Notes under the pieces: model-generated
The model's input: only the letters and a program-made list of their open reading frames with translations
Told to the model about the DNA's origin: nothing
The model's database searches: none
Part shown: positions 7,100 to 41,391 of the stretch, piece by piece
How the letters are laid out: each line of letters opens with the position of its first letter
How positions within the stretch are numbered: position 1 is the stretch's first letter
Made by a program: the position numbers and the translations under genes
Source of the DNA: Actinomycetota bacterium
GTDB lineage: Bacteria; Actinomycetota; Nitriliruptoria; Nitriliruptorales; Nitriliruptoraceae
Direction: 5' to 3'
Assembly: GCA_019347575.1 (NCBI GenBank)
Contig: JAHWKY010000001.1
Location: 62,001-126,000, forward strand
Length of the DNA: 64,000 nucleotides

Positions 7100-9286
7100 T
7101 CAGGTGGATGGTTCGTCGGACTTGGGCGCTGGCTCGACCGGCTCGGACTCCGGTGCTGGCTCGTCCCCGGGCTCGTCAGCGCCCTCAGGTTCATCCGCGC
7201 CGTCGGTGGGGCCGGGGAGCGGTGACTCGGTGGGCGCTCGAACGGGTACGCAGTCGCGCGGGGAGGGAGCGGGCGCCGGGGACGGCGTCGCCGTGGGGCA
7301 CGGTGGTGGTGGCGACGGTGGTGGCGGAGGAGGTGGTGGCGGCGACGGGCACGTCGCCTTCGGGACGAGTACGCGAGGCAGCGCACGTTCCTCCGATGCG
7401 CACCACGGCGCCGATCGCAGCCCGGTCACCGGGTCGATCGCCACGATCTGGTAGTACTCCTCGGGCAGCATGAAGCTCACGGGATCCTGATCGGTGAGGT
7501 ACGACGACACGAAGTCGCGCCAGATACGAGCCGGGATCGAACCGCCGGTGACACGCCCCACGCCCCGCACGTTGACGAGGGGCACCCGTTCCTCGGCATC
7601 GCCGACCCAGACCGCGACCGAGATCGTCGGCGTGTAGCCGACGAACCAGGCGTCGGTGTGGTCGTCCACGGTCCCGGTCTTACCGGCGACCTCCCACCCC
7701 GGCACCCGTGCCGCCGTCCCGGTGCCGTCCTCGACGACGGTGCGCAGCATCTGGGTCGTGACGAACGCGGCCGACGGCTCCAGCACCTGGACCCGGGCGC
7801 GGTTGGGGCGCCACACGACCTTCCCATCGCTGTCCTCGATGCGATCGATGGGCGAGACCGGCACGCGCTCGCCCAGGTTGGCCAGCGTGGCGTACGCCGC
7901 CGCCATGTCGAGCGGGCTCACCCCGTGGTCGAGACCCCCGATCGCGATCGGCGGGTCCTCGTTGATCGGGGACTCGATCCCCATCGCTCGGGCGAGCGTC
8001 GCCACACGGCCGGGCCCCAGCTCGAGGATGAGGCGCGCGAAGACCGCGTTGACCGAGGCTCGCGTCGCCTCCTGCAGCGTGATGGCGCCGTACGACACCC
8101 GTGAGAAGTTGCGCACCGTCCACGGGCCGTTGCTGGTGTCGAGCGTGGTCTGGTTGCCGTTGACGCGTGAGTCGGGGCGGTAGCCCGACTGCAGCGCCGC
8201 CGCGAGAACGAACGTCTTGAAGGTCGAGCCGGGCTGACGCCGCGCCTGGGTGGCCAGATCGAACTGGCTGTGCTCGTAGTCCCGACCTCCGACCAGCGCG
8301 AGGATCTCGCCGGTGTCGGGCACGACCACGGCGATCCCCACCTCGGGGTCGGTCGGGTCTGGGAGGTGCGTGTCGCGTGCGGTCTCGGCCACGGCGAGGA
8401 CGTCGGGGCGGAGCGTGGTGTGGACGCGCAATCCGCCGCCGAAGAGGCGCGTCGCCCGTTCGGACTCGGTCGCGCCGAAGCTGGGGTCCTCCAGCAGCTC
8501 GCGCACGACGAAGTCCACCCAGTGCGGGTGTCTGGTCTCGGGGGTGGCTGGCCGCGGTAGCACAACGATGGGCTGGCCCTTGGCGCGCGCGGCGGCGTCG
8601 GAGTCGACGAGGCCGCCGTCGACCATGCGGTCGATGATGTCGTCGCGACGTGCCCGCAGTCCCTCGGAGTCGCGTGCGGGTTGCAGGCTCTCGGGGGACC
8701 GGATGAGCGCAGCCAGCATCGCCGACTCGGCGAGGTCGAGGTCCTCGATGGGCTCGCGGAAGTACGTGAACGCGGCGGCCTGGACGCCGTACGCCCCGTT
8801 GCCGAAGTAGACCGTGTTCAGGTAGTCCTCGAGGATGCGCTCCTTGGAGGTCTCGTCCTCGATCCGACGGGCGAGCAGCGCCTCACGGAACTTGGTGCTG
8901 GGGGTCCGCGGGGCGTCGGGCATGTAGACGTTCTTGACCAGCTGCTGCGTGATCGTGGATCCGCCCTGCGCGATCTCGCCGCTGGCACGGTTCGCGAGAG
9001 CCGCTCGGACGATGGCGCGGGCGTCGACCCCGGCGTGGATCCAGAAGCGGCGGTCCTCCGCGGTCACGACCGCGTCGACGAGGTGCTCGGGGAGATCGTC
9101 GAACGCCGCGCGCTCGCGGAACTCCTGACGCAGGACCGCGATCTGTGCGCCATCGGCGTCGTAGACGAACGTCTGCTCGGGGACGTGCCTTGGTACCGCT
9201 TCGAGATCCGGCGGGTCGAGCTCGACGACCGGTCCACACGCGGCGGCCGCCAGACCCCAGATGAGCGCCGCGACGGCGAGCCGCAC
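7100..9286 (-). CDS. Class A penicillin-binding protein
   Basis: This bifunctional peptidoglycan synthase has 728 residues. The glycosyltransferase part shows EDRRFWIHAGVD and GGSTITQQLVKN. The transpeptidase part shows the active-site PGSTFKTF, RASVNAVF and AGKTGTVDD. The C-terminal 80 or so residues are a disordered Pro-rich and Glu/Pro-rich tail. GTG at 9286 has GGAGGG six bases upstream and is preferred over TTG at 9319. From this start the N-terminus is unusually short: a 14-residue hydrophobic stretch runs directly into LAAAACGP, which resembles a weak lipobox rather than a full membrane anchor. A TACCTT -10 box lies at 9327-9322. The lipid kinase gene follows 81 bases downstream. Confidence 0.92.
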   Translation of the reverse strand: MRLAVAALIWGLAAAACGPVVELDPPDLEAVPRHVPEQTFVYDADGAQIAVLRQEFRERAAFDDLPEHLVDAVVTAEDRRFWIHAGVDARAIVRAALANRASGEIAQGGSTITQQLVKNVYMPDAPRTPSTKFREALLARRIEDETSKERILEDYLNTVYFGNGAYGVQAAAFTYFREPIEDLDLAESAMLAALIRSPESLQPARDSEGLRARRDDIIDRMVDGGLVDSDAAARAKGQPIVVLPRPATPETRHPHWVDFVVRELLEDPSFGATESERATRLFGGGLRVHTTLRPDVLAVAETARDTHLPDPTDPEVGIAVVVPDTGEILALVGGRDYEHSQFDLATQARRQPGSTFKTFVLAAALQSGYRPDSRVNGNQTTLDTSNGPWTVRNFSRVSYGAITLQEATRASVNAVFARLILELGPGRVATLARAMGIESPINEDPPIAIGGLDHGVSPLDMAAAYATLANLGERVPVSPIDRIEDSDGKVVWRPNRARVQVLEPSAAFVTTQMLRTVVEDGTGTAARVPGWEVAGKTGTVDDHTDAWFVGYTPTISVAVWVGDAEERVPLVNVRGVGRVTGGSIPARIWRDFVSSYLTDQDPVSFMLPEEYYQIVAIDPVTGLRSAPWCASEERALPRVLVPKATCPSPPPPPPPPPSPPPPCPTATPSPAPAPSPRDCVPVRAPTESPLPGPTDGADEPEGADEPGDEPAPESEPVEPAPKSDEPST

Positions 9287-32113: not shown

Positions 32114-32338
32114 ATGCGTCAGGGCATCCACCCAGAGTACGTCAAGGCCACCGTGACCTGCTCGTGCGGGAACCGGTTCGAGACCCGGGCCACCACCGAC
32201 GAGATCCACGTCGAGCTGTGCAGCCAGTGCCACCCGTTCTACACCGGCAAGCAGAAGCTGGTCGACACGGGTGGCCGCGTCGACCGCTTCCAGCGCCGCC
32301 TTCAGGCCGCCGAGGAAGCCAAGGCCAAGAAGAAGTAG
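32114..32338 (+). CDS. rpmE: Ribosomal protein bL31 (zinc-binding form)
   Basis: This 74-residue protein has the C+ type cysteines: CSCG near residue 16 and CSQC near 37, then the conserved [20 protein letters not shown]. Zinc-binding L31 sits on the large subunit and can be swapped for a zinc-free paralogue under zinc limitation. GGAGG lies seven bases before the ATG. It follows rho, as in Mycobacterium and Bacillus. Confidence 0.97.
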
Positions 32339-32369
32339 GCATCGACGGCGCCAGCTCCCGGAGCGCACC

Positions 32370-34409
32370 GTGTCCAGATCCGTCTCGTCGGGCATCACCG
32401 TGTGCACGGCGCTCGCCGTGGCGCTCGCCGCTGCCTCCCTGGCGCTGGCGCCGTCCGCGGCGGCCGCGCCGTCGTCCGCAGCGGGTGACGGTCAGGCGCC
32501 AGCTGGCGTGGGTTCGCACACTTGGACCGTCTCCGACTTGCAGATCGAGACGCTGACCGGCCCGGACGACGACATCCCCGTGACGCTCGATGCGTCGCTG
32601 TGGCTGCCCGATGACGCCAGCCCCGCGTCGCCCATGCCCGCCATGCTGATCGCGCCGGGTTTCGGCAACAGCAAGGATGCCGCCGAGATGGTCACCCTCG
32701 CGGCGTACTTCGCCTCGCATGGCTACATCGCGATGACCTTCACACCCCAGGGCTTCGGCGCGTCGACCGGTTGCATCGGCCTCGACTCGCGCACCTACGA
32801 CAACAAGAACGCCCGCGCGATGATCGACCACCTCGCCAGCCTGGACGTCGTCGCCACCGAGGCGCCGGGGGACCCGAAGGTCGGCATGGTCGGCGGCTCC
32901 TACGGTGGGGGGCTGCAAGGCCACACCGCGATCGCGGATGCGCGGATCGACGCGATCGCGCCTGGACGCACGTGGACGGACCTGGCGTACGCGCTCAACC
33001 CCAACAACTGGGTGCGCGACGCCGACGCCCCGTACGCGGTGGACGGGTACGAGCAGGGGGTCTTCAAGCAGGCCTGGACCTCGCTCTTCTTCGCGCTCGG
33101 CACCGCCCAACCGGCGATGGGTGGTGGTGGCTGCGATCCCGTGACGCGCCAGCAGACCTACCCGACCGCGACCCCGTGCAGCGCCTGGATCCCCGGCATC
33201 TGCGAGACGTTCGCGCGTCTGTCGACGACCGGTGACGCCTCGGAGGAGGACCGCGCACTGGTGGCCGACTCGAGCCTCGCGCCCGAGCTCGGCCAGCTCA
33301 CCACCCCGACCCTGTTGCCGCAGGGTCTGCCCGACACCCTGTTCACGCCCAACGAGACGGTGCCCGTTCTCCTCGACCTGCAGAGCCGGGGCGTGCCCGT
33401 CGCCGTGATCTGGCACTCGTCGGGGCACGGCGGGCACAACGGCGCACCCGGTGACGGTGAGCCGTACACCGGCCAGTTCGACGACTCGCCGGAACGTCAG
33501 GCCGAGTTCGCGCAGACGTACCTGGCGCGGCGGATGCTCGCCTGGATGCAGCGCCACGTCCGTGGCGATGCCTCGGTCGACACCGGCCCGGCGTTCGCGT
33601 ACTTCCGTGACTGGGTGGACTACGACGTCGCCGAGACCGGCGGCACGGCAGCCCCCGCATACGGCACCTCGGACGGGATCCCGCCCGGGGATGACCTCGA
33701 GCTCGTGCTCGATCCGGTCGCGGGTCGCCTCGTCGAGGTCGGCGAGCCCATGACCGGTGGGAGCGGCACCTTCCTCAACCCGCCGGGCGGAACACCGGCC
33801 GCGTACTCCGAGCTGCCGAACTTCTCCTCACCTGGGGACACCGGCGACCGGCCACCGCAGGAGATCGAGGGCCAGCACCTCGCTTTCGACACCGAACCTC
33901 TCCAGGCACCGCTCGATCTCGTGGGGATCCCCTTCGTGGACCTCCACCTCAGCCACGGCAACGCGCTCCGTGACGCCAGGCTGTTCGCCAAGCTCTACGA
34001 CGTGGCGCCTGACGGGACGGCGACGCTCCTGCGCCGGCAGGTCGCTCCGGCGCGGATCCCCACCGAGGCGCTCACCGAACCGGTGACGTTGCGACTGGTC
34101 GGTACGAGCTGGCGGTTCGAGGAGGGCCACCGTCTGCGCCTGGTTCTCGCCTCGACGGACACGGCCTTCTACAACGAGCGCCTGGCCGACGTGCTGACGG
34201 TCAGCTCGACCACCGATGCGCCTTCCGCCCTCCGCCTGCCGGTCGTGGGTGCCAGCCTGGTGACAGGGGGGACGCCGGCTCCCCCCGCCCCGGCACCGAG
34301 CAGCCCGCCGGCACGCGCCCCGCTCCCCGCGACCGGTGGCGGCGTGGCGGTCGTCGGACTCGCGTTGCTGCTGACGACCGGACGGCTCCGCCGCGACGTG
34401 GGGCGCTGA
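32370..34409 (+). CDS. Secreted CocE/NonD-type alpha/beta hydrolase with LPATG wall-sorting tail
   Basis: This 679-residue exported enzyme is of the Xaa-Pro dipeptidyl-peptidase / cocaine-esterase family. A signal peptide (about 1-33) is followed by an alpha/beta-hydrolase domain with nucleophile motif VGGSYGGG. The His is probably in SSGHGGHNG. A C-terminal jelly-roll domain (from about 540) ends in STDTAFYNE. The extreme C-terminus is LPATG (652-656), a hydrophobic helix and a basic RLRRDVGR, a textbook sortase signal. It is therefore probably anchored covalently to the wall; no sortase gene lies in this window. GTG at 32370 has GGAG upstream. Substrate unknown. It begins the accessory block between rpmE and the prfA group. 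Confidence 0.82.
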   Translation: MSRSVSSGITVCTALAVALAAASLALAPSAAAAPSSAAGDGQAPAGVGSHTWTVSDLQIETLTGPDDDIPVTLDASLWLPDDASPASPMPAMLIAPGFGNSKDAAEMVTLAAYFASHGYIAMTFTPQGFGASTGCIGLDSRTYDNKNARAMIDHLASLDVVATEAPGDPKVGMVGGSYGGGLQGHTAIADARIDAIAPGRTWTDLAYALNPNNWVRDADAPYAVDGYEQGVFKQAWTSLFFALGTAQPAMGGGGCDPVTRQQTYPTATPCSAWIPGICETFARLSTTGDASEEDRALVADSSLAPELGQLTTPTLLPQGLPDTLFTPNETVPVLLDLQSRGVPVAVIWHSSGHGGHNGAPGDGEPYTGQFDDSPERQAEFAQTYLARRMLAWMQRHVRGDASVDTGPAFAYFRDWVDYDVAETGGTAAPAYGTSDGIPPGDDLELVLDPVAGRLVEVGEPMTGGSGTFLNPPGGTPAAYSELPNFSSPGDTGDRPPQEIEGQHLAFDTEPLQAPLDLVGIPFVDLHLSHGNALRDARLFAKLYDVAPDGTATLLRRQVAPARIPTEALTEPVTLRLVGTSWRFEEGHRLRLVLASTDTAFYNERLADVLTVSSTTDAPSALRLPVVGASLVTGGTPAPPAPAPSSPPARAPLPATGGGVAVVGLALLLTTGRLRRDVGR

Positions 34410-36026: not shown

Positions 36027-38144
36027 GTGCGCACGTCCAGGTGGTTGTCGCCGGTGGTGGTGCTCGCCGTGCTCGCGGCTCCTACCGCCGTCGGGGCGGA
36101 CCCCTCGTGTACCGACGAGCTGACGACCCGGGTCCAGTCCGAACTCGGGGTGTTCACGAGGTGGCTCGAGGCCCACGACGTCGAGGGTGTGATCGGCGAG
36201 GTCGGTTGGCCCGACGACGAGGGGGGTGCTGCCGACCGTTGGAACGCGCTCGCTGACGCCTGGTACCGCGATGCCGATGCAGCCGACCTATGGGTGATGG
36301 CGTGGGCGACCGGTGAGTGGTGGGGCGACTACCCACTGGCGGTGTACGAGGCGGACGGCTCGGGGCCCGTCTCGCAGCCCAACACCCAGGCGCGGGTGGT
36401 TGAGAGCCACCTCGGTTCCAGTGGTGTGCTCCGAGGAGTGAACAGCGCTGGTGGGGAGTTCGGTACCCCGGGGCCACTCGATGCCACCAGTGCCTTCTCG
36501 AACCACACGCCAGGCACGTACGGCACATCCCACCACTACGACAGCAGCGCGACCTTCCACTACCTCGCGACCCGGGGGATCGAGGTCGTGCGGCTCCCCT
36601 TCCGGTGGGAGCGCGTCCAACCAGAGCTCGGTGGTCCCCTCGACCCGGAGGAGATGGGGCAGTTGCGCGCAGCCGTCGACCGCGCGACCGACGCCGGGCT
36701 CCACGTCGTGCTCGACGTGCACAACTACGGCGCCTACTGGAGGTGGGACGGCAGTCGCGGCGTGCGCACCCCGATCGGCTCCGACGCCCTCAGCATCGAC
36801 GAGTTCGCCGACCTCTGGCGTCGGCTCGCCACGCACTTCATCGGTACGGCTGGAGTCGTCGGCTACGGCCTGATGAACGAGCCGGTCGGCCTGCCGTCGA
36901 TCGGCGGGCGGTCTCCGGCGGAGGTGTGGGAGCAGGCGGCGCAGGCAGCCGTCACGGCGATCCGGCAGGTGGACCGGACGACCACGGTCCTCGTCGGAGG
37001 CTACGAGTGGAGCGGCGCCCAGCGCTGGGACGCCGTTCACGACGACGCCTGGATCGACGACCCCGCCGGGGCGATCCGCTACGAGGCCCACCACTACTTC
37101 GACCGCGACAACTCCGGGAAGTACGCGCACGGGTACGAGGCCGAGGTGACCGATGCCCGCGCCCGCGGTTACTCGATCGTCTGTGGCCGGCACAACGTCG
37201 AGCGCATCGCTGGACCCGACCGCGTCGCGACCGCCGTCGCGGCCGCCCGCCGCGGCTGGTTGGCGGCCGAGGCGATCGTGGTTGCCCGCAGCGACGACCC
37301 GTCGGACGCCCTCGCAGGGACGGTCGTCGCCGGGAGCCTCGACGCCCCGCTCGTCCTCACGCCGACGGACGGACTCGCTCACGAGGTCGCGATGCTCGTC
37401 CGCGAACTCGGGGTGGAGCGGGCGGTCGTCATGGGCGGGGAGCGTGCACTCGGACGCCAGGTCGTCGCTGACCTCGAGGCGGCCGGCGTGACCAGGATCG
37501 ACCGTCTCGCAGGCGCAACACGGGTCGAGACCGCCGCTGCCGCGGCCCGCGCGGTCCCGGACGCCGGCCGCACGGCGCTGCTCGTGCGCGGGTCGTTCCC
37601 GACCGAGCCGACCCGGGCGTGGGCGGACGCACTGGCCGCTTCGGGTCTCGCGGCCGGGCGAGCCCGCAGCGGCGCGGCGTGGCCCGTCCTCGTCGCGGGT
37701 GACACGGTGCCGCCGGCGACCCGCGAGACACTCGACGATCTCGACATCGAGCACGTCATCGTCGTGGGTGGGACCGCGACGATCCCAGCGGGGGTCGACG
37801 ACGACCTCCGCTCGGCCGGCTACGACGTCGAACGGCTGGCCGGCGCCACACGGTACGACACGAGCCTCGAGGTCGTGCGGCGCGAACTCGCCCTCCGAGG
37901 CGACGCTCCCAGTCCGCTGCTGATCGCGACCGGGACCGCGTTCCCGGACGGGCTCAGCGCAGGCGCTCTCGCGGCGCGTCTGGGCGGGACGTTGCTGCTC
38001 GTACCCAGCCAGACGGACGCGTCGCAGGTGGCGTGGTTGGGCGACCACCGCGACCGGTTCACCCACACCCCGCTCGTCGTGGGTGGTGAACTCGCGGTCG
38101 CACCGGCCGTCGCTGCCGACATCGCCGCCGCCGTGGACGGCTGA
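36027..38144 (+). CDS. Secreted GH5-type glycosidase, apparently circularly permuted, with three CWB2 repeats
   Basis: This 705-residue exported protein has a signal peptide at 1-24. Residues 40-107 read like the last two strands of a GH5 barrel: GVIGEVGWP with the nucleophile-like Glu58, then LWVMAWATGEWWGDY. Residues 133-375 supply the earlier strands in normal order: LRGVNSAGGEFG, GIEVVRLPFRWERVQP, VVLDVHNYGAYW, GYGLMNEPVG with acid/base-like Glu285, and IRYEAHHYFD at 351-360. Then, where strands 7-8 should follow, the sequence changes directly to three cell-wall-binding repeats of type 2 (about 387-705), marked RIAGPDRVAT, RLAGATRVET and RLAGATRYDT. CWB2 repeats hold proteins non-covalently in Gram-positive walls. 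GTG at 36027 follows AGGGAG. A beta-glucan substrate is inferred from the neighbours. Confidence 0.8.
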   Translation: MRTSRWLSPVVVLAVLAAPTAVGADPSCTDELTTRVQSELGVFTRWLEAHDVEGVIGEVGWPDDEGGAADRWNALADAWYRDADAADLWVMAWATGEWWGDYPLAVYEADGSGPVSQPNTQARVVESHLGSSGVLRGVNSAGGEFGTPGPLDATSAFSNHTPGTYGTSHHYDSSATFHYLATRGIEVVRLPFRWERVQPELGGPLDPEEMGQLRAAVDRATDAGLHVVLDVHNYGAYWRWDGSRGVRTPIGSDALSIDEFADLWRRLATHFIGTAGVVGYGLMNEPVGLPSIGGRSPAEVWEQAAQAAVTAIRQVDRTTTVLVGGYEWSGAQRWDAVHDDAWIDDPAGAIRYEAHHYFDRDNSGKYAHGYEAEVTDARARGYSIVCGRHNVERIAGPDRVATAVAAARRGWLAAEAIVVARSDDPSDALAGTVVAGSLDAPLVLTPTDGLAHEVAMLVRELGVERAVVMGGERALGRQVVADLEAAGVTRIDRLAGATRVETAAAAARAVPDAGRTALLVRGSFPTEPTRAWADALAASGLAAGRARSGAAWPVLVAGDTVPPATRETLDDLDIEHVIVVGGTATIPAGVDDDLRSAGYDVERLAGATRYDTSLEVVRRELALRGDAPSPLLIATGTAFPDGLSAGALAARLGGTLLLVPSQTDASQVAWLGDHRDRFTHTPLVVGGELAVAPAVAADIAAAVDG

Positions 38145-38233
38145 CGCCCCACGATCGTCCGGCCAGGGTCGGCCCTGGCGTGGGTCATGGCCGTGGGGTC
38201 ACCTCTGCCCCCTGCCTGTGCGAACGGCGACCC

Positions 38234-39433
38234 GTGACCCGGAGAACGACGGTCATCACCGCGTTGACCCTGATCGCCGTGGCCGCCGCGGTCGTGTTCA
38301 CGGCCACGCGTGGTGATCGGAACATGTCGATGCCCGAGGAGGTAGACGACGTCGGCGAGGTCGACGAGTCCGATGACGCCAACGCGGGTGACGTCGATGA
38401 CGCCGATGATATCCACGACGCCGATGACGCGGACGAGGACGCCGGGGCGGCTGCGGCGCTCGCCGCCGCCCGCGCCTTCCTGGACCGCTACGTCGCCGAC
38501 GACGGTCGCGTCGTACGCCACGACCAGGGTGGTGACACCGTCAGTGAGGGCCAAGCTTACGCGCTGCTCTTGGCCGTCGCGGTGGAGGACGAGCGGATGT
38601 TCCGCACGGTGTGGGACTGGACCCGCGCCAACCTCGTGGGTCCGGACGGACTCCTCGCGGCACACTGGAACGACGGGGGTGTGGTGGACGACGATGCAGC
38701 TACCGACGCCGATCTCGATGCAGCGCACGCGCTGGTGCTGGCGGGGGACCGGTTCGGCGAACCCGCGTTCTCGGCCGCAGCGGTGGAGCTAGCCAGCGCG
38801 ATCGCGGCGCACGAGATCCAACGGGTCGGGGACCGTCACCTCCTGCTGCCCGGGCCGTGGGCGCGCGGTGCCGAGCCGGTCGTGTTCAACCCCAGCTACG
38901 TGTCGCCCCTGGCTTTCGATGCCCTCGGTGCCGCGTCGGGCGACCCGATCTGGGATGCGCTGCGCGCCGACTCGTTCGAGCTCCTCGATCACCTGATGGC
39001 GCCCCCCGCGGCGCTGCCTCCGGACTGGGCCGAGGCGACCGCCGATGTCGTCACGGCTGCGCCGGTGCCGGGCGACGACGGCCCTCCCCGCTACGGCTAC
39101 GAGGCGGTCCGGGTTCCCATCCGCCTCGCGGCGGATCGCGACGGTCCCGGGTCCGACCTCGCGGCCCGGCTGTGGCCGTTCCTCGAGCAGCGGGTTCGCC
39201 AGGGTCTCGTCGACGTCTACGCCCTCGACGGCAGCCCCCTCGGCGAGGCGCCACATCCAGTGGCTCTCGTGGCGGCCGCAGCGGCCGCACGTGCCGCCGG
39301 CGACGACGGTGCCGTCCACGACGTCCTGGATGCCGCCGCCGCTCTGGACGAGGAGCGGCCCTCCTACTACGGGGCCGCGTGGGTGGCGCTCGGGCGCGTG
39401 CTGCTCACCACCGACCTGCTGGACCCGCACTGA
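38234..39433 (+). CDS. GH8-family glucanase, membrane-anchored
   Basis: This 399-residue protein starts with a hydrophobic anchor (TTVITALTLIAVAAAVVF), then an acidic low-complexity linker of about 55 residues rich in DD, DA and DV. The catalytic domain has GH8 landmarks: TVSEGQAYALLLAV with the catalytic acid Glu, ATDADLDAAHAL, FNPSYVSP, and YEAVRVPIRLA. GH8 members beside cellulose synthases (BcsZ type) trim the nascent glucan. GTG at 38234 gives the anchor without an extra leader. It lies between the GH5 and the GT2 synthase genes, consistent with work on the same polymer. Confidence 0.82.
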   Translation: MTRRTTVITALTLIAVAAAVVFTATRGDRNMSMPEEVDDVGEVDESDDANAGDVDDADDIHDADDADEDAGAAAALAAARAFLDRYVADDGRVVRHDQGGDTVSEGQAYALLLAVAVEDERMFRTVWDWTRANLVGPDGLLAAHWNDGGVVDDDAATDADLDAAHALVLAGDRFGEPAFSAAAVELASAIAAHEIQRVGDRHLLLPGPWARGAEPVVFNPSYVSPLAFDALGAASGDPIWDALRADSFELLDHLMAPPAALPPDWAEATADVVTAAPVPGDDGPPRYGYEAVRVPIRLAADRDGPGSDLAARLWPFLEQRVRQGLVDVYALDGSPLGEAPHPVALVAAAAAARAAGDDGAVHDVLDAAAALDEERPSYYGAAWVALGRVLLTTDLLDPH

Positions 39434-39531
39434 TCTGGACCTGTCCCCACGGTCCTCCCTCTCGATGGACCTGTCCGACGTGCCAGGGTCGTCCGACGCA
39501 GCCGGCGAAGGCGCGCACGAAGGTGCCGCCC

Positions 39532-41391
39532 ATGAGTCGAGACACGACGCCGATCCACCCCGACAAGTCGTCCGGATCGTTCACCGCACACCGTCCTCGG
39601 GACCCCGCCCCACCGGCGTCGGACGGGCCCGCCGGCGACGCCACCGAGAGGTTGCCGGCGGCGGCTCCGGTCGCCACCGACCCCGGTGACGAGACGCTCG
39701 AACGTCTCCTCGAGCAGCACCGGCGCTTCCGCGGCCCGCGTCGAGCGGCGGACAGCGTCACGACGGGCGAGCACCCGACCGCGGGTCGGGTCCACGAGGA
39801 GCCTTGGCCCGGGAGGTTCGGGGCGCGTCTGCTCATCCTCCTCAACGTCCTGTTCACCGCCGCGTACCTCGGGTGGTGGTCGGTCGGTGGTCACGTCGGC
39901 AACCCGTGGCTGTTCGTCGCCCTCGCGGTCGCCGAGGCGTTCACGGTCGGCCACCTCGTCGGTCTGTGGCAGTCGATCTGGAAGGCGGGAGTGGAGCTGC
40001 CGCCGCCGGGGGAAACGTGGTTCTCCATCGACGTGTTCGTCCCCACCTACGGCGAACCGCTCGACGTCCTGCGGCGAACGGTCACCGCGGCGGTGGGGAT
40101 GGACGGATCGCACCGCACGTACGTCCTTGACGACGCGGTTCGCGACGAGGTGCGCCAGCTCGCGGTCGAGCTCGGCGCCGAGTACATCCCCCGCGAGTCC
40201 TCCGGGGGCGCCAAGGCCGGCAACCTCAACCACGCGATGGCCCGTACCGATGGCGACCTCGTCGTGGTGTTCGACGCCGATCACGTCGCGCGACGCGACT
40301 TCCTCTACCACCTCGTGGGGTACTTCGAGGACCCCGACGTCGCTCTCGTCCAGAGTCCGCAGTGCTACGGCAACGCGGTCTGGAACCCCGTGGCTCGCGG
40401 GGCGTGGAACCAGCAGGAGGTCTTCTACGGCCCGATCAAGCGCGGCAAGTACGGCCTCGGCGCGGCGTTCCTCTGCGGGACCAACGCCATCATCCGGCGC
40501 GCCGCACTCGAGCAGGTCGGCGGGTTCGACCAGACCACCGTCACCGAGGACGTCGCCACCAGCCTGCACCTGCATCGCGACGGCTGGTCCACGGTGTACT
40601 TCCCGTTCGTGCTCGCCGAGGGTGAGGGCCCTCCGACCGTCCGCCAGTACCTCACTCAGCAGCTTCGCTGGGCGCACGGGTCGATCTCTCTGCTGTTGTC
40701 CGGCGCCCCGCTGAAGCTCGGGCTGCGGCCGTTGCAGCGGTTGCAGTACCTGTTCAGCACGACCTACTACTTCATCGGGGTCATCACTCTGATCTACCTG
40801 TCACTGCCCCTGTTCGCTCTGCTGGCTCGCGAGGGTCCGTTCGCGAGCGGAGCCACGACGTTCTTCGTCTTCTACATCCCCCACGTGCTCGTGACGCTGT
40901 ACAACCTGCGGCGCGAGCTGCAGGGCGAGTTCGGCCTCCGCCACATGCAGTTCACGTTCGGGGCGTTCCCGATCTACGTCAAGGCGGCGATCGCGGCGTT
41001 CCTGGGGCGCGAGACGGGGTTCAGCGCGACCGGCGCGGCCGAGCGGCAGGGTCCACCTGCGGTGGCTTGGGTGACGGTCCTGGCCCTCGTGATCACCGTC
41101 GGTGCCGTCGTCGCAGCACCCTTCGTCGCTCCGCTGGACGTGTGGAGCGGCGTGGCGATGTTCTGGGGCGTTGTGAACACGGTCCTGCTCTGGCCCATGA
41201 CCCGCCTGATCGTCATGGAGGCCTTCGGGCGCTTCCACGCCGCCCCGGCGCCGGCCGCGGTCGGCGGGTCCCCGGCGCGACCGGCCGCCCCGACGTGGGT
41301 GTTGGGTCACTTCGAGCGGCCGCCGCTGCCGGAGAAGGTCCTCCCGAACTACGTGCTCGCGATGCGCGCCCTCGGCTACGTGGACAGGTGA
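39532..41391 (+). CDS. Cellulose-synthase-like GT2 glycosyltransferase
   Basis: This 619-residue membrane enzyme has a disordered first 80 residues and two helices (about 100-150). The GT2 domain has VPTYGEPLDVLRRT, VVVFDADHVARRDF (DxD), TEDVATSLHLH (TED base) and QQLRWAHGS (QxxRW), the set of processive beta-glycan synthases. Several C-terminal helices follow. There is no PilZ domain, so direct cyclic di-GMP control of the BcsA type is not indicated. The ATG at 39532 has an AAGG box. It probably makes a beta-1,4- or mixed-linked glucan and extrudes it; the linkage is not decidable from sequence. A small membrane protein starts seven bases on. Confidence 0.88.
   Translation: MSRDTTPIHPDKSSGSFTAHRPRDPAPPASDGPAGDATERLPAAAPVATDPGDETLERLLEQHRRFRGPRRAADSVTTGEHPTAGRVHEEPWPGRFGARLLILLNVLFTAAYLGWWSVGGHVGNPWLFVALAVAEAFTVGHLVGLWQSIWKAGVELPPPGETWFSIDVFVPTYGEPLDVLRRTVTAAVGMDGSHRTYVLDDAVRDEVRQLAVELGAEYIPRESSGGAKAGNLNHAMARTDGDLVVVFDADHVARRDFLYHLVGYFEDPDVALVQSPQCYGNAVWNPVARGAWNQQEVFYGPIKRGKYGLGAAFLCGTNAIIRRAALEQVGGFDQTTVTEDVATSLHLHRDGWSTVYFPFVLAEGEGPPTVRQYLTQQLRWAHGSISLLLSGAPLKLGLRPLQRLQYLFSTTYYFIGVITLIYLSLPLFALLAREGPFASGATTFFVFYIPHVLVTLYNLRRELQGEFGLRHMQFTFGAFPIYVKAAIAAFLGRETGFSATGAAERQGPPAVAWVTVLALVITVGAVVAAPFVAPLDVWSGVAMFWGVVNTVLLWPMTRLIVMEAFGRFHAAPAPAAVGGSPARPAAPTWVLGHFERPPLPEKVLPNYVLAMRALGYVDR

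Follow-up and report, generated by a model that had tools for sequence, protein, structure and literature searches.

Glycoside hydrolase family 5 (GH5) is among the most studied of the glycoside hydrolase families, and the order of the elements in its barrel is treated as fixed. Within subfamily 5 (GH5_5), the solved enzymes RBcel1 (4ee9) and P. stutzeri Cel5A (PsCel5A; 4lx4/6r2j) run from beta1 to beta8, and the catalytic residues of RBcel1 are the acid/base Glu135, Tyr201 and the nucleophile Glu245 (PMC8900817). A natural permutation of a barrel has been described for the GH70 glucansucrases, which, relative to GH13, are ordered N-alpha3-beta4 ... beta3-C (PMC11046441; PMC8398850). Wall-binding repeats of the CWB2 kind are found in Cwp6, Cwp8 and S-layer proteins of Clostridioides. 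Here we describe a gene from a stretch of 64,000 nucleotides (the window) of the draft genome of an Actinomycetota bacterium of the family Nitriliruptoraceae, the predicted product of which would be a secreted, retaining, GH5_5-like endo-beta-1,4-glucanase with a circularly permuted (beta/alpha)8 barrel.

RBcel1 (which stands for GH5_5 among the nearest solved proteins) and PsCel5A are the closest solved relatives of the window protein by sequence and by fold, and they share its catalytic residues and its beta/alpha elements; however, both follow the usual strand order and lack CWB2, whereas the chain of the window protein starts with alpha6 and its barrel ends after beta6. GH70 enzymes resemble the window GH5 in being naturally permuted glycoside hydrolase TIM barrels that start with a helix (PMC11046441), but they are other enzymes, with another cut site and a CAZy family of their own. 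The Clostridioides proteins carry the same kind of repeats as the window protein, in which, unlike in them, the repeats are fused to a permuted GH5. The GH5 enzymes of two Corynebacterium genomes (L017, L018) share the GE-GWP and GEW motifs with the permuted proteins and cluster with them in a tree (100/99), yet their elements run in the usual order, their beta6-alpha6 connection is longer where the permuted chains are cut, and they show no evident signal peptide. No report of a natural circular permutation in GH5 or in a cellulase was found in the open-licence PMC literature; within the literature so searched, permuted GH5 enzymes as a group, with a single wall-repeat fusion among them, appear to be unreported.

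Layout of the gene and its catalytic residues

The gene (36027..38144, + strand, as are all its features given below) is one continuous open frame of 705 aa with no internal stop, and its GTG start lies a few bases downstream of a purine-rich AGGGAG. Residues 1-24 (36027..36098; VRTSR, a hydrophobic core, then VGA) read as a predicted signal peptide. Next, at residues 27-133 (36105..36425), comes alpha6-beta7-alpha7-beta8-alpha8, the displaced C-terminal portion of the GH5 barrel, as delimited by profiles, PDB matches and AlphaFold2, and after it the N-terminal part, beta1-beta6 with a final short helix ending in ARGY, at residues 134-382 (36426..37172), as delimited by PF00150, the duplicated profile described below and the model. 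Three CWB2 cell-wall-binding repeats recognised by Pfam (residues 387-705, 37185..38141) complete the protein.

Homology to GH5 (clan GH-A) is documented by the doubled profile, by PDB matches with E-values down to 1e-47, and by PF00150 (Cellulase, GH5), which in Pfam aligns residues 160-376 with positions 16-223 of 272 (E 1.5e-34). The CWB2 family (PF04122) matches three stretches (E 3e-37, 127.5 bits against a cut-off of 24.9). These are the only Pfam annotations, and the first ~110 mature residues are blank. This is a blind spot of annotation, in that domain searches that depend on order call a permuted GH5 truncated and leave unannotated the N-terminal 110 residues that bear the nucleophile.

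The motifs named in an earlier sequence-only reading of the gene, that is GVIGEVGWP with Glu58, NEP with Glu285 and YEAHHYFD at 352-359, followed by CWB2, were all found where it had placed them. The string LWVMAWATGEWWGDY comprises residues 88-102 and LRGVNSAGGEFG starts at residue 135; GEFG at residues 143-146 belongs to the beta1 loop and is not a second nucleophile motif. The GH5 catalytic set is complete in the window protein (R189, H232, N284, E285, H355, Y357, E58 and W93). The predicted nucleophile, Glu58 (36198..36200), aligns to RBcel1 Glu245, the predicted acid/base, Glu285 (36879..36881), to Glu135, and Tyr357, within His355-His-Tyr357 (37089..37097), to Tyr201. Among the 13 permuted proteins considered below, Glu58, Glu285, His355 and Glu97 are invariant, Arg189, Asn284 and Tyr357 are each kept in 12, His232 in 11, and Trp93 (36303..36305), the GH5 beta8 Trp, in eight. 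The Trp is replaced by His or Gln in most permuted proteins of the f15 genomes (L061, L063, L065, L066, L067), which retain the Glu four residues past this site that corresponds to Glu97 and that is found family-wide. In one permuted paralog (L060 7070-8407, G099), V, A and R occupy the sites of the GH5 Arg, His and Asn and both catalytic Glu residues are kept; this enzyme is possibly altered or dead.

Evidence for rotation of the barrel

The sequence-only reading held that strands 7 and 8 precede beta1-beta6, with every part of the barrel present once. Both propositions are borne out by profile and PDB searches. With phmmer, the window protein yields two out-of-order matches on the single chain of 4lx4, query residues 153-367 corresponding to chain residues 19-218 and query residues 42-113 to chain residues 236-303. 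RBcel1 and XacCel5A show the same pattern, and out-of-order matches on single PDB chains are also obtained with a permuted relative (L010). With a GH5 profile of canonical order, residues 27-128 reach 60.8 bits, compared with 10.0 bits for the best of 2000 shuffles. In the opposite direction, a profile of the N-terminal piece built from the 13 permuted proteins matches GH5 chains only in their C-terminal portion (chain 219-318), the top match (E 3e-11) spanning chain residues 226-301.

Alignment to a duplicated profile, a check proposed in that reading, also favoured permutation. The canonical profile, built from five relatives of normal order, has 325 positions, and its duplicated version 650. 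The single version matches the window protein in two segments, positions 233-308 (55.6 bits) being followed by positions 9-231 (253.5 bits). The duplicated version gives one continuous match, in which residues 31-377 correspond to positions 233-556 of 650 (317.8 bits, 324 of the 325 positions), running through the later part of copy 1 into the first part of copy 2 and using each element once. The other 12 permuted proteins likewise give one match each, cut at positions 225-236, and canonical-order controls align in register. As the element order is alpha6-beta7-beta8-alpha8 and then beta1-beta6, rather than the beta1-beta8 of GH5, the protein was classed as a circularly permuted relative and not as an ordinary GH5. 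The moved piece had been given as residues 40-107; that it has moved is upheld, but its extent was underestimated, since it comprises the full alpha6-beta7-alpha7-beta8-alpha8 unit at about residues 27-133.

It might be argued that the gene joins what is left of an upstream GH5, or a separate domain, to a second piece that is a C-terminally truncated and dead GH5. This would agree with the behaviour of sequential structure aligners, which cover only residues 127-380, just as expected of a barrel cut short, and which never align both halves at once. However, a second copy of beta7/beta8 was sought after residue 376 of the window protein and none was found, which makes the arrangement a rotation rather than a duplication. 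Moreover, every strand is found a single time, each half retains its catalytic Glu in all 13 proteins, all members are cut at one profile position, and the AlphaFold2 model is a single compact domain with a high pTM. Partial duplication was therefore rejected for want of the second copy, and we consider it very improbable.

The AlphaFold2 model of residues 24-385, computed with 15 related rows, is one domain with all eight strands (pLDDT 81.8, pTM 0.86), in line with the sequence-only reading. Its strands lie at 30-37 (beta7), 66-72 (beta8), 113-117 (beta1), 164-169, 203-208, 254-258, 297-301 and 327-334 (beta6), and pLDDT falls below 50 at residues 100-124 and 146-158 (model 77-101 and 123-135). 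By Foldseek and VIA-align, model residues 105-357 superpose on residues 6-229 of PsCel5A (4lx4), with a VIA-align Z of 22.9 and an rmsd of 2.7 over 224 residues. As the sequential aligners miss the last third of GH5, we infer from the pTM and from the catalytic residues on either side of the cut that the barrel probably closes into one fold. A genuine permutation could also give rise to a domain-swapped dimer, in which each barrel is completed by the N-terminal piece of a partner molecule. Such a swap would be compatible with the sequence and with a monomer prediction, and model confidence is low around the alpha8-beta1 linker; against this, there is only a short linker between the two elements and the monomer is, overall, predicted with confidence, and we regard the swap as very unlikely. 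The window GH5 is thus best read as a natural circular permutation in which the last quarter to third of the barrel has been placed first, a reading that we hold to be highly probable.

The chain is cut in the beta6-alpha6 connection. The intact permuted relatives, with the exception of L010, end in a short helix and GY, GF or GH directly before the stop codon, and L010 terminates at the same short helix. In the window protein the equivalent ARGY leads through SIVCGRHN into the first CWB2 repeat. Its only two cysteines are Cys28 (36108..36110), where the permuted barrel now begins, and Cys386 (37182..37184), just past the barrel and ahead of CWB2. A full-length AlphaFold2 model that includes CWB2 is poor (pTM 0.56), and it assigns residues 28-29 and 385-386 to strands, which is compatible with their pairing; a Cys28-Cys386 disulfide that would staple the new ends of the barrel is plausible. 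With its catalytic residues intact, the permuted clade offers a natural experiment on how well a TIM barrel tolerates termini at the beta6-alpha6 loop, and on the changes in substrate-binding loops that come with tying alpha8 to beta1.

Permuted relatives and their history

The order of N-terminal piece and then C-terminal piece was found in 13 intact ORFs from 10 genomes, the window included. The other 12 genes, from nine further genomes, are 36-59% identical to the window protein and share both the rotation and the cut site. They include a relative in the same family (L010/L070, 37% identity), one in 'Actinobacteria bacterium isolate 28' (L015/L056, 59% identity) and, in the phylum sample, members from genomes of three more families. 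The assembly is a 120-contig draft, and tandem GH5 genes that had been collapsed or mis-joined in assembly or by local rearrangement, with the end of one placed ahead of the start of the next, could give such an order. This explanation is effectively ruled out because 12 independent, intact homologs in nine other assemblies show the same order and the same cut site; in addition, the closest named relative comes from a separate public record (CADDZK010000069.1), and the window gene contains no leftover of a second GH5 copy. On this comparison of genes, the rotation is a real, inherited redesign rather than a sequencing error, since no fewer than 12 related genes, from distant actinobacteria, are rearranged in the same way.

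Relatives from Corynebacterium (two), Planctomycetota and Bacteroidota have the canonical order. Among 246 Planctomycetota genomes, 15 had a match and none was permuted, all whole GH5_5-like ORFs being in normal order; no intact permuted gene was found in a sample of 296 Acidimicrobiia genomes, and in the plasmids searched each match was to one piece only, that of beta1-beta6. With the permuted order found in 10 genomes and the canonical order in these other groups, the permuted clade is patchily distributed in the Actinomycetota. Decayed or frame-broken copies were also observed: L069 ~7318-7900 keeps the N-then-C order with internal loss, L012 ~1506-1608 consists of the C-terminal end only, and L022 8001-8150 of the first 50 residues only.

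The canonical-order GH5 proteins closest to the permuted clade are those of Corynebacterium hylobatis and C. lemuris, two of 101 genomes in the genus sample. In a tree of the larger piece they fall inside the permuted clade (91/85). Because of this position, because they have a long linker at the old cut site, and because they begin and end at what is the alpha8-beta1 linker of the permuted proteins, it is conceivable that the barrel was rotated once in the actinobacterial lineage and was then rotated back in Corynebacterium. The trees do not reject a single origin that leaves Corynebacterium as the unpermuted sister (p-AU 0.40 for both pieces, 0.26 for the larger piece), and for this reason reversal is viewed as an unlikely possibility.

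Wall repeats, neighbouring genes and predicted role

The sequence-only reading had also offered a reason for the permutation, namely a C-terminus left free to carry wall repeats. The relatives do not support this, as 12 of the 13 permuted proteins end right after the barrel and only the window protein has CWB2, and permutation as an adaptation for C-terminal repeats was accordingly rejected. Given that those 12 stop after the barrel, the rotation would, most simply, be older than the CWB2 fusion and independent of it. Some 60 further places in this genome encode CWB2, the best of them 52-55% identical to the window repeats, and because the repeats are so abundant here the simplest reading is that an already permuted GH5 acquired a local wall-binding module. 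Many of these places lie in frames of more than 1000 aa, and together they amount to an unusually large set of CWB2 surface proteins.

The permuted gene is followed after 35 bases, on the same strand, by the frame of a BcsZ-like GH8 glucanase (38180..39433; PF01270, E 4.9e-35) and then by a cellulose-synthase-like (BcsA-like) GT2 gene recognised by Pfam (39526..41391, start approximate). As the GH8 protein scores 123.9 bits against NCBIfam BcsZ, under its cut-off of 299, and the GT2 protein 280.6 bits against TIGR03030, under its cut-off of 699, the locus can only be termed 'bcs-like'. Cellulose synthase loci typically include a GH8 or a GH5 glucanase, and cases in which GH5 stands in place of GH8 are on record for other bacteria (PMC9693552); RBcel1 is able to polymerise cello-oligosaccharides (PMC8900817). 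Since a BcsZ-like and a BcsA-like gene lie next to it, the window protein may well act on a cellulose-like polymer, and we lean slightly towards a wall-tethered glucanase or transglycosylase working on the product of the neighbouring GT2.

An enzyme that degrades environmental or plant beta-glucan as a nutrient, with no relation to the cell's own polymer, is also possible, if less so. Many GH5 cellulases are catabolic, and a GT2 gene was found close to the permuted gene at only three of the 13 loci (the window, L070 and L058) and not by the other 10, some of which are on short contigs; a general tie of permuted GH5 to cellulose synthase was rejected on this count. In the window itself, however, the gene order and shared strand, together with the standing of GH8 and GH5 glucanases at cellulose synthase loci, speak against a purely catabolic role.

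For the protein as a whole, a secreted, permuted GH5 fused to CWB2 is very likely the correct explanation. Its chain would run from alpha6-beta7-alpha7-beta8-alpha8 through a short linker between the former C- and N-termini into beta1-beta6, with three CWB2 repeats gained at the new C-terminus in this genome. The repeats should anchor the enzyme in the cell wall, and its probable activity would be to trim or transglycosylate nascent beta-1,4-glucan at the cell surface. Elsewhere in the window, an S15-family peptidase/hydrolase (32271-34409) ends in LPATGGGVAVVGLALLLTTGRLRRDV, which resembles an LPxTG sorting signal, and in this genome sortase may serve for anchoring alongside CWB2.
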